Shown: positions 30,882 to 33,862 of the stretch, piece after piece
Layout of the letters: each line of letters opens with the position of its first letter
Position numbering within the stretch: position 1 is the stretch's first letter
Made by a program: the position numbers and the translations under genes
Source: Oricola cellulosilytica
GTDB taxonomy: Bacteria; Pseudomonadota; Alphaproteobacteria; Rhizobiales; Rhizobiaceae
Direction: 5' to 3'
NCBI RefSeq assembly: GCF_019966575.1
Contig: NZ_JAINFK010000009.1
Location: forward strand, 1-64,000
Length of the DNA stretch: 64,000 bases
Notes under the pieces: model-generated
Seen by the model: the letters and a program-made list of their open reading frames with translations, nothing else
What the model was told of the DNA's origin: nothing
Databases searched by the model: none

Positions 30882-31937
30882 TCAGATCACCTCATCCTCG
30901 TCGAACAGCGGGTGGCTGTCCATTTCATCGGTTATGGCCTCGATCTTGCCGCCGGCCTGCGCAAGACGACCAGTGCGGGCGATATGAAAAAGGGCATCTC
31001 CCATGTTGACCGTCGGCAGATTGGTCCGGCCGATAATCACACCTGCAGCTTCCGCGGTGATCGTAACCTCGTATTCGCCAAAGGGGTCGCTCAGCACGGC
31101 GATCGCCTCGCCCGTCTCCACCAGATCACCGGTCGTCCTGTTCATTCGGAGGATGCCGCCCTCGGGCGCACGGACCCAGTAGCTAGATTTGGATCGGACC
31201 GGCTTTCGTCTGGGAGGGGAGACGCTCTTTGCGGGGAACATGCCAAGTTGCTGCATCACCGACATCACGCCCCGAACCCCGATTCGGATAGAGAATTCAT
31301 CGAAACGCAGCGCCTCACCTGCCTCGTAAAGCAGCATCTCTACCCCGTTTCTCTTCGCCGTCTCGCGCAGAGAACCGGTGCGCAGGGACGATTCAATGGT
31401 GACCGGAGCTCCAAAGGCGTCTGCAAGCGCGCGAAGGCGCTCCGTCGCGGAATTGTCGAACCGCAATTGCGGAAAGTTGGTTCGATGTAGAGCTGCCGTG
31501 TGGAGGTCGATGCCCGTCTCGCAGCGCAGCACAATCTCGCGCAGGAAGGTGTCCGCAAGGCGCGCAGCCATGGACCCGCGTTCCGATCCGGGAAACGAGC
31601 GGTTCAGATCACGCCGATCCGGCAGATAGCGAGAATGGGCAATGAAGCCCGGACCGTTGACAATCGGCACGGCGATGAGTGTACCGCGCAGCTTTTCCAT
31701 CAGCGGCGATTGCAGCACCCGCCTGATGATCTCGATGCCGAGAATTTCGTCCCCGTGAACAGCCGCCGAGACAAAAAAGGTCGGACCGGGGCGCTTGCCG
31801 TGAATGACCCGGATCGGCAATTCCATCGGGACATGGTTGGACAACATCCCAAGCGAGATTCCGATCGTGGCGCGCTGCCCCGGCCCGATTACTGTATCTG
31901 CGATCTCGAAAGGTTCACGCTGGTTTTTCTGCAGCAT
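30882..31937 (-). CDS. Succinylglutamate desuccinylase/aspartoacylase-family zinc hydrolase
   Basis: About 351 residues of the AstE/ASPA branch of M14 zinc carboxypeptidases. Zinc ligands are His61 and Glu64 (VHGDE) and His146 (DLHTA). Substrate residues appear in DRRDLNRSFPG. The C-terminal about 100 residues form a biotinyl/lipoyl-like barrel (ILRMNRTTGDLVETGEAIA), common in the bacterial subfamily. It starts 8 nt after the RimK-like gene. Coexpression with a glutamate ligase suggests it removes an acyl or glutamyl group added by that ligase; this is inference. Confidence 0.88.
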   Translation of the reverse strand: MLQKNQREPFEIADTVIGPGQRATIGISLGMLSNHVPMELPIRVIHGKRPGPTFFVSAAVHGDEILGIEIIRRVLQSPLMEKLRGTLIAVPIVNGPGFIAHSRYLPDRRDLNRSFPGSERGSMAARLADTFLREIVLRCETGIDLHTAALHRTNFPQLRFDNSATERLRALADAFGAPVTIESSLRTGSLRETAKRNGVEMLLYEAGEALRFDEFSIRIGVRGVMSVMQQLGMFPAKSVSPPRRKPVRSKSSYWVRAPEGGILRMNRTTGDLVETGEAIAVLSDPFGEYEVTITAEAAGVIIGRTNLPTVNMGDALFHIARTGRLAQAGGKIEAITDEMDSHPLFDEDEVI

Positions 31938-31945
31938 GCCGGCGG

Positions 31946-32851
31946 TCAACCTTTCCCCTTGGTTCGGGTGTTGCCCTTGGCGGCGTTGGATTCGATCAGG
32001 TTGATGATCTTGCCCGCGACGTCGACGCCCGTGGCCTTCTCGACACCTTCGAGGCCCGGCGACGAATTCACTTCCATCACCACAGGGCCGTGATTGGACC
32101 GCAGCATATCGACGCCGCAAACGTTCAATCCCATGGCTTTTGCGGCGCGAACTGCGGTCGAGCGCTCCTCCGGCGTGAGTTTCAGGGTCTTTGCGCTGCC
32201 TCCCCGGTGCAGATTGGAACGGAACTCGCCCTCCGCGCCCGTGCGCATCATGGATGCAACGACCTTTCCGCCGACGACGAATGCGCGGATATCGGTACTT
32301 CCTGCTTCCTTGATAAATTCCTGAACCAGGATATTTACATTGGCACCGCGAAAAGCCTCAATGACTGATTTCGCCGATCGGCGGGTGTCACCCAGTACCA
32401 CGCCGATACCCTGTGTTCCCTCGATAAGCTTGATGATGACCGGCTCGCCCCCAACGAGATCCAGCAGCGCATCGGTCTGCTTGGCGTCATGCGAAAACGC
32501 GGTCACCGGCAGCCCGATACCGTCCCGGGCAAGGATCTGCATCGAGCGCAACTTGTCGCGCGAACGACCGATGGCCACCGATTCATTCAGCGGCCATACG
32601 CCCATCATCTCAAACTGGCGAAGCACCGCCGTGCCATAATAGGTAACCGACGCGCCGATACGCGGGATGACGGCGTCGTAACGGGGCAGTTTCTGGCCAT
32701 TGTGATAGAGCGCCGGCCGATGCGATGTAATGTCCATGTAGCAGTGCGTGTGATTCACGATGTCGATCTCGTGCCCACGGCTTTCCGCCGCTTCCACAAT
32801 TCGCTTATGGGAATACAATCCGGCATTACGGGCCATCATCACAAGCTTCAT
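31946..32851 (-). CDS. rimK: RimK-like ATP-grasp amino-acid ligase
   Basis: A 301-residue ATP-grasp ligase of the RimK family, which adds glutamate residues to a protein C-terminus (ribosomal protein S6 in E. coli and Pseudomonas). Visible are the N-terminal domain, [19 protein letters not shown] for ATP binding, and the Mg site [13 protein letters not shown]. Length matches RimK. Its ATG overlaps the stop of the RimB-like gene by 4 bp (ATGA). The target may be S6 or another protein or metabolite. Confidence 0.92.
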
Positions 32852-33369
32852 TGTTTTTCTCCAGTGGAAACGTTTTCGCCGCGCTTGTCCGCAGCCGAAA
32901 GGTAAGCGTGGCTGCTGTCGACCAGGAAACCCCGTCGAAGCAGATTGCGCCCGATCAACATCGGGAATTCCATGCTGTCCCGGTTGGTCAGCGTTATCTC
33001 GACTGTGTTCCGGTGTCCGGCAAGCCTGATCGGCGTCTTCACGACGACACGTTCTTCCGCATGACCGGACGACGACTTAACTGTGCGCTTGTCTACGACC
33101 GGCGCCTGGAAGAGCCGAGCAGCCGGATCGCGGGCCGGAAGAATCGAGAACTCAACCCACCGCCTGTTCTCTTTCTCCAGGATCTTCATTGTCTCGACGT
33201 GAAGCGCACATGTGCGGGCGCCGGAATCGATCTTAGCGTGAACCGTCAAGTCGCCGAAATCCGGTAAACGCACGACCTCTTTCCAGCCGACGACTGTCTT
33301 CTTGCGTTCGCTCGTCTTCTTGCGCGCGCGCTCTGGCTGCTCGCCACGCGCCTGATTTTCGTTTCTCAT
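32848..33369 (-). CDS. RimB-like retropepsin-type aspartic protease
   Basis: A 173-residue protein of the DUF785/RimB family ('ATP-dependent zinc protease' in older annotation). The aspartyl motif DSGA (Asp48-Ala51) and the second conserved segment [10 protein letters not shown] mark a single-domain retropepsin fold; a basic N-terminal tail precedes it. In Pseudomonas RimB modulates or trims RimK products. The gene is flanked by 4-bp ATGA overlaps on both sides, making a very tight operon. Confidence 0.88.
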
Positions 33370-33638
33370 TCACTCACCGCCCCAATGGCCGCGTCATTGA
33401 CACGCCGGTAACTCGTGAAGGTGCGATGACTTAAGACGACAAAGAACGTCTCCATATCGATCAGCGCGAACCCCAACTCGTTCAATGCTCTCGACAAGTC
33501 ATTGATATCGCTTTCATACAGCCGCTTGCGGCCAGTGACCTCGCGCAAGTGCTTCATCGATATTCGGAACCGGCCGCGCGGCTTGCCGCCGAAAGGCTGT
33601 TCATAGAGTTCGACGATTTGCGACGCCGCAGCCTGCAT
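33366..33638 (-). CDS. Small protein of unknown function heading the rim cluster
   Basis: A 90-residue protein (MQAAASQIVELYEQPF...) rich in charged residues, with FRISMKHLREVTGRKRLYES and a C-terminal FVVLSHRTFTSYRRVND. No signal peptide or membrane segment is seen; it may be a small winged-helix-like or adaptor protein, but I recognise no family. Its stop overlaps the protease start (ATGA), so it is the first gene of the four-gene rim unit. Longer frames reaching 33947 cover the A/T-rich promoter region and are unlikely. Confidence 0.65.
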   Translation of the reverse strand: MQAAASQIVELYEQPFGGKPRGRFRISMKHLREVTGRKRLYESDINDLSRALNELGFALIDMETFFVVLSHRTFTSYRRVNDAAIGAVSE

Positions 33639-33862
33639 TTGCAATGATGTTCTCCACCCGCTCGCCGCCCTGAATATCCATCGGACGGATTTTTGCAATA
33701 TTTTTTTGGCTATAGATGAATTTATTTTCCCAAATGGGGATATCAAACCAATGTGACGCGGAGCGAGTTGTCGACAAGGTAAGGTTTCATCTTGCCCTCT
33801 TTCAGTCACCCGTGCATCACGGATACATGAAGAGAACGATGGACGAGACGGGAGCCACGGCA

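Follow-up and report, generated by a model that had tools for sequence, protein, structure and literature searches.

A RimK operon of Oricola cellulosilytica with an AstE-like hydrolase of a RimK-dependent subfamily and a small predicted regulator

Introduction

What takes off the last glutamates that a RimK ligase puts on? The question is raised by a four-gene operon of the alphaproteobacterium Oricola cellulosilytica (Hyphomicrobiales), in which genes for a small protein, a RimB-like retropepsin, the ligase RimK and a predicted zinc hydrolase of the AstE/ASPA type follow one another closely. We analysed it within positions 1 to 64,000 of contig NZ_JAINFK010000009.1 (assembly GCF_019966575.1, forward strand), hereafter the window. 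In Pseudomonas, reversible glutamylation of a ribosomal protein alters which proteins the cell makes; there, RimB leaves 4-5 glutamates on ribosomal protein S6, and a 2020 model assigns the restoration of unmodified S6 to an "as-yet-unidentified protease" (PMC7343187). Five contiguous glutamates are reported to be enough for RimB to cut (PMC11957791).

Our reading, to which we give a probability of about one half, is that this operon is a module for glutamylation by RimK, equipped with a hydrolase for the finishing step and with a transcription switch of its own. Among the genomes that we sampled, the subfamily of the hydrolase was never found without RimK, which makes the enzyme a concrete candidate for the activity that restores unmodified S6; the operon may thus fill the "eraser" gap in a known system that tags ribosomes.

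The operon and its protein families

All four genes lie on the minus strand, with coordinates and junctions that a check of the window's sequence left unchanged:

33366..33638, minus strand: small protein (90 residues), winged-helix-like model, probable autoregulator
32848..33369, minus strand: RimB-like retropepsin (173 residues), PF05618, motif KIDSGART
31946..32851, minus strand: RimK, ATP-grasp glutamate ligase (301 residues), PF08443 and NF007764
30882..31937, minus strand: predicted AstE/ASPA-type zinc hydrolase of a RimK-dependent subfamily (351 residues), PF24827; H61, E64, H146, E205 and E208 invariant

The junctions between the small gene and rimB and between rimB and rimK are 4-nucleotide ATGA overlaps (33369-33366 and 32851-32848), and 8 nucleotides separate the rimK stop from the ATG of the AstE-like gene; the two overlaps and the short gap bear out the view, taken in a preliminary description of this DNA, that the four genes form one operon. 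RimK matches PF08443 (E 6e-67) and passes the equivalog threshold of NF007764 (428 bits, cut-off 331). The RimB-like protein matches PF05618 (E 7e-28) and carries the motif KIDSGART, the Asp of which is presumably catalytic, and its score on the NCBIfam RimB model (92.8 bits) is below the 200-bit cut-off, so we call it no more than RimB-like. For the fourth protein, AstE_AspA_cat (PF24827) is matched at E 4e-37 and 128 bits against a cut-off of 25; both NCBIfam AstE models fail, at 18.2 and 20.3 bits against cut-offs of 305.65 and 170. Searches of Pfam and NCBIfam at E 0.1 gave nothing for the small protein.

Dependence of the AstE-like subfamily on RimK

A profile built from 30 RimK-linked AstE-like proteins was run on the same 299 genomes of Pseudomonadota (the phylum set) that were searched for RimK, with thresholds of E <=1e-50 for the AstE-like subfamily and E <=1e-60 for RimK. 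The subfamily was found in 69 genomes and RimK in 107, and every genome with the former also had the latter (69/69, none without RimK; Fisher p 2e-40, uncorrected for kinship). The preliminary description had supposed that the fourth enzyme could reverse or trim what the ligase adds: its tie to RimK stands and, because all 69 AstE genomes carry RimK, that role is the best available reading of what the enzyme does. The use of RimK-adjacent members only may have biased the profile, a concern that is countered by the unlinked copies it also found. In 23 of the 69 genomes, spread over eight families with 13 in one of them (f81), no AstE-like gene lies within 5 kb of the RimK gene on the same contig: in 8 the two genes share a contig and in 15 they lie on different contigs, which in broken assemblies is no proof of distance. 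Members of the main subfamily score at least 420 bits, and six further matches at 286-306 bits, all in genomes that have a main copy too, look like a sister paralogue.

A second set comprised 199 genomes of Hyphomicrobiales (the order set), 41 of which have RimK above the cut-off. All 30 genomes with the AstE-like subfamily are among the latter. Where an intact stand-alone RimK is present, the subfamily is present as well in 29 of 30 genomes (the sole exception being G140), and it is absent from all 10 genomes that have only a fused RimBK, three of which (G073, G190 and G141) were classed as fused from the length of the frame. In G192, an AstE-like gene on contig 56 (L329) lies beside a stand-alone rimK that is interrupted by a stop, and the genome also encodes a fused RimBK; this looks like decay of a stand-alone system. 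The operon is patchy: at E 1e-60, RimK was not found in 13 more genomes from the same family as the window. A mirror-tree comparison of the four proteins gave correlations of 0.70-0.82, which had no control and were set aside.

Neighbourhoods of rimK

Apart from that of the window, the order set has 43 RimK places. We compared 40 of them, 30 with a stand-alone rimK and 10 with a fused RimBK, leaving out those of G073, G190 and G141. Beside the stand-alone rimK lie rimB in 27 of 30 loci, an AstE-like gene in 26 (L043 has a 62-residue fragment only) and a small gene in 10 (L051 has fragments only); no AstE-like gene adjoins any of the 10 fused genes. Strict co-occurrence of all four genes in the order, the check proposed at the outset, thus holds up largely for the hydrolase and not for the small protein: the core is three genes (rimB, rimK and the AstE-like gene), and the small regulator is optional. 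From the 112 RimK places of the phylum set we took 60 loci, 55 of them with a stand-alone rimK. In 28 of these 55 an AstE-like gene is adjacent, a count that excludes a 16-bit match in L151 and in which L165 is cut by a contig end; the five fused loci have none alongside. The gene order rimK-astE-rimB in L149, L159 and L189 indicates rearrangement with the rimK-astE pair kept.

Another 73 loci, the named loci, were collected by two peptide patterns of the small protein, a procedure that favours close relatives. All four genes are found in 70 of them, although in L287, on the same contig as L043, the AstE-like gene is a fragment; L279 lacks the AstE-like gene, in L281 the contig breaks off behind rimB, and the small gene of L322 was not recovered. 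Because it recurs in 70 of 73 loci, the arrangement is not due to chance.

Several loci differ from this layout in other ways. L286 (1387-3836, minus strand) is the one locus we saw in which a fused RimBK directly adjoins an AstE-like gene and a divergent small gene, and it may connect the fused form of the system with the separate one. A macro-domain protein is encoded upstream of the fused RimBK, within about 270 nucleotides, in 5 of the 10 fused order loci (L067 5419-5967, minus strand, PF01661 E 9e-31; similar open reading frames in L063, L064, L065 and L068 were judged by eye). In L258 (6765-7277, plus strand; the copy checked with Pfam) and L272 (4827-5390, plus strand), the AstE-like gene has a second retropepsin gene (PF05618) behind it, which makes a five-gene cluster.

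Active site and acidic tail of the AstE-like hydrolase

Five residues, H61, E64, H146, E205 and E208, are invariant both in 26 copies and in a 30-row alignment; by analogy with aspartoacylase, we take them to be the zinc ligands and the catalytic Glu. The model of the protein has a predicted local distance difference test (pLDDT) of 92.8 and a predicted template modelling score (pTM) of 0.91, and its top structural matches are DoeB/EutE (E 3e-29, 25% identity) and 3cdx, with CphZ lower (E 4e-20).

The closest solved structures are thus those of DoeB, an N-acetyl-diaminobutyric acid deacetylase, and its relatives, and because these deacylate small molecules, a metabolite could be the substrate here too. 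RimK would then ligate glutamate to a small acid and the AstE-like enzyme would deacylate a related N-acyl amino acid, much as animal RIMKL enzymes and aspartoacylase act around N-acetylaspartate. We think such a metabolite cycle improbable: a RimB-type gene, which encodes a polyglutamate endopeptidase in relatives, adjoins rimK in nearly all stand-alone order loci and would make little sense for a dipeptide, and R152, N154, R159, R191 and R256 do not vary across the RimK-linked proteins and are replaced in both 3cdx and DoeB (pairwise printed alignments). These replacements suggest that the RimK-linked enzymes have a different, more basic pocket than 3cdx and DoeB.

The other conspicuous feature of the protein is its C-terminal end, which in the window is encoded as follows:

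30885..30902, minus strand: codons for the C-terminal acidic peptide DEDEVI of the AstE-like protein

We compared 93 distinct copies, taken from the order set, the 73 named loci and five phylum loci of the same class; nearly all are alphaproteobacterial by title (that of L261 reads Woeseiaceae). The end consists of four acidic residues plus two more in 84 of the 93, with DEDE[IV][IL], typically DEDEII, in 78 of these. Mean identity is 0.91 over the last six columns, 0.72 over the core and 0.54 over the linker. Copies from outside the class lack the acidic tail, that of L169 excepted. In the model of the window's protein, residues 348-351 have pLDDT values below 50. The conserved end is probably a peptide that docks to a partner. 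Two other explanations were ruled out. A constraint at the level of DNA is contradicted by synonymous codon variation and by the unrelated DNA beyond the tail, and a general genome-wide tag by the rarity of the DEDEII coding pattern, which matched only 25 times in the 199 order genomes (its reversed form, used as a control, matched in 6 genomes): 23 of the matches coincide with AstE places and 2 end another protein, which we take to be ribose-5-phosphate isomerase.

The small protein and its palindrome

The small protein is modelled as helix-strand-helix-helix-hairpin-helix (pLDDT 85, pTM 0.70), which fits the winged-helix topology (helix-strand-helix-helix-hairpin); fold matches are weak, and many of them are winged helices. 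A sequence search of the PDB with this protein gave nothing significant, and the one match among phage families, phrog_26231, is weak (E 2e-4) and to a family of unknown function. The family is rare, with four clear matches in the 299 phylum genomes (the window's included) plus a marginal one in G326. A distant homologue with a very acidic C-terminal extension is encoded in G201 (L327 3886-4386, plus strand).

Two features lie upstream of the small gene in the window:

33705..33720, no strand assigned: degenerate copy (3 mismatches) of the palindrome TTTGTCTATAGACAAA, putative operator for the small protein
33719..33746, minus strand: promoter-like hexamers TTGATA-16-TAAATT, the second of which touches the putative operator; from a consensus scan at chance level (1 found, 1.0 expected)

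Of 83 stretches upstream of the small gene, 51 contain the word ATAGACAA, against 0.8 expected. A copy of TTTGTCTATAGACAAA with at most three mismatches is present in 50 of 72 distinct loci, where single-base shuffles would give 0.1; these same loci had supplied the consensus. At that stringency the site is present in 5 of the 10 order loci with a small gene and in none of the 20 without (L057 has a copy with four mismatches), and in the 60 phylum loci it occurs only in L175, i.e. in 1 of 3 with a small gene and 0 of 57 without. Across 198 genomes of the family to which G412 belongs, we found eight sites with at most one mismatch, six at a small gene and two elsewhere (the reversed palindrome, as control, matched in 2 genomes). 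The window's copy is the sole site with up to three mismatches in the 64 kb, where 0.04 are expected and 4 of 100 shuffles have one, and its position relative to the small gene is like that in other loci, if slightly further upstream. Since a locus-specific palindrome lies upstream of the small gene, a role in transcription fits, and fold, site and linkage together suggest that the small protein is probably an autoregulator, which would bind TTTGTCTATAGACAAA at its own promoter.

The preliminary description had suggested that this protein could be a substrate or adaptor, in which case the palindrome would belong to another factor. In the window the protein does end in Glu and is translationally coupled to rimB. 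The C-termini of its relatives, however, end in many different residues, and on that ground we reject an acceptor role for RimK through a C-terminal Glu; in the order set the palindrome, with at most three mismatches, is confined to loci with the small gene; and in 22 of the 73 named loci the small gene is divergent from the operon. With the winged-helix-like model added, we regard an adaptor or substrate as very unlikely and prefer the autoregulator.

In 7 of the 11 divergent loci that were read, an MgtE-like transporter gene stands ahead of rimB. The instance supported by Pfam is L283 (2534-3961, minus strand), in which the gene for an MgtE-type magnesium transporter overlaps or abuts rimB, heads the rim operon and is divergent from the small gene; the same arrangement was read by eye in L277, L291, L292, L294, L298 and L305.

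The target of glutamylation

S6, which the preliminary description named among the possible targets, is weakened as a candidate. The S6 of the window's own genome ends in Lys (...RDENREGDK), with no C-terminal Glu, so that the assignment of the ligase to its family holds but S6 is doubtful as its substrate. In our selection of order genomes (the window's excluded), S6 ends in Glu in 10 of 29 with a stand-alone RimK, 9 of 23 without RimK and 3 of 7 with a fused RimBK; there is no association (Fisher p 0.78), and a terminal Glu that does not track RimK makes S6 a poor guess for this order. Outside the class, again among genomes that we selected from a larger set, an S6 with a terminal Glu occurs in 15 of 29 genomes with RimK and in 3 of 23 that lack it, an association at p 0.007 (uncorrected for kinship). 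Seven other RimK-less alphaproteobacteria, two of them with Glu, were set apart, and no S6 was found in one genome with RimK (G259). That the S6 of some bacteria has no terminal Glu has been noted before, and other targets have been suggested (PMC11957791).

There might also be no protein target at all. RimK and RimB would then make and cut free poly-alpha-glutamate, and the AstE-like enzyme would recycle the short products to glutamate. This would fit with the missing association in the order, with the stimulation of RimK's poly-glutamate synthesis by RimB (PMC11957791) and with the precedent of AstE-annotated enzymes that finish off a polyamide. On the other side, the window's unit has no transporter or storage gene (the MgtE-type gene joins in some other loci), and the association outside the class makes a protein target likely at least there. 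We therefore consider free polymer turnover, as the whole function of the unit, unlikely.

Proposed mechanism

In the glutamylation module that we favour, RimK would add glutamates to a protein C-terminus and/or make free poly-alpha-glutamate, as its relatives are known to do. The RimB-like protease would cut long chains down to about 4-5 residues, as published for S6 in Pseudomonas. The AstE-like zinc enzyme would hydrolyse what RimB leaves, either the last C-terminal glutamates or short oligo-glutamates that have been released, and so return target and glutamate to the ground state, with its acidic tail docking it to a partner. The 90-residue winged-helix regulator would bind TTTGTCTATAGACAAA at its own promoter and set the expression of the operon. 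The finishing step is supported by the finding that AstE-annotated proteins finish a polyamide made by an ATP-grasp enzyme after an endopeptidase has cut it (PMC10206079). A more specific version, in which ground-state deglutamylation in the RimK system falls to the AstE-like enzyme, the alphaproteobacterial cycle has moved off the S6 C-terminus, and the enzyme is held or itself marked via its DEDEII tail, is speculative, and we would not bet on it.

Several observations weigh against the module as we propose it. RimK occurs without the AstE-like subfamily in 38 of 107 genomes, so such an eraser is not universal. Nor, outside the order, does the subfamily keep strictly to stand-alone rimK: two of the 23 genomes with unlinked genes (G270 and G304) carry a fused RimBK with the AstE-like gene elsewhere, and in L286 an AstE-like gene and a small gene adjoin a fused RimBK. 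The nearest solved relatives of the hydrolase (DoeB) are small-molecule deacylases, and the genome's own S6 has no terminal Glu. For the regulator, the winged-helix call comes from a model built on 13 sequences with pTM 0.70, for which no Foldseek match had E <0.001 and the best Z was 6.6; its distant homologue in G201 sits in a RimK-negative genome; the palindrome is weaker or absent in 22 of 72 loci and in two of the three phylum loci with a small gene; and the window's own putative operator is degenerate.

If the module is as proposed, the palindrome and the small predicted regulator could help to show under which conditions it is expressed, and the conserved tail could lead to the docking partner of the AstE-like enzyme.

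Comparison with known systems

Among the papers listed by our literature searches, none joins RimK with an AstE-type partner; we do not claim priority, since a 2009 survey of amidoligases possibly notes a pairing of this type. The words aspartoacylase and succinylglutamate are absent from PMC10092738, PMC11957791 and PMC7343187.

The closest described operon is RimABK of Pseudomonas fluorescens, which likewise combines RimK and the RimB retropepsin with another co-transcribed gene in front, but for which no AstE-like hydrolase has been described. RimA has an EAL cyclic di-GMP phosphodiesterase domain (PMC4741518), whereas the small protein here has no Pfam domain; without EAL, or any other Pfam family at E 0.1, it is ruled out as a RimA. 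In three loci taken to be from Pseudomonas (L144-L146), there is no clear gene ahead of rimB to set against RimA. The fused RimBK hybrid of the Desulfotalea type also brings RimB and RimK domains together in one locus (PMC11957791); it differs from the two separate genes here and, apart from L286, lacks an AstE-like neighbour (0 of 10 order loci and 0 of 5 phylum loci).

For the hydrolase alone, DoeB/EutE N-acetyl-diaminobutyrate deacetylase is the best structural match and shares the HGDE motif, but on the DoeB model the window's protein reaches 82 bits, where the cut-off is 402.7, and several invariant arginines of the AstE-like subfamily are not shared. A working parallel is offered by the cyanophycin cycle of CphA, cyanophycinase and CphZ, the polymerase of which belongs to the ATP-grasp class. 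That cycle, too, has a polymerase, an endopeptidase and an AstE-annotated finisher of short products: the breakdown of cyanophycin is reported, with reference to a companion study, to be completed by proteins annotated as succinylglutamate desuccinylase/aspartoacylase (PMC10206079). CphZ is not named in that paper, and its identity with those proteins is our own link. Both the polymer and the class of endopeptidase are different, so the unit is a parallel to this cycle at most and not a member of it.

The chemistry of RimK and RimB is thus published; what is added here is a RimK-dependent AstE subfamily, its conserved tail, and a small predicted regulator with its palindrome.

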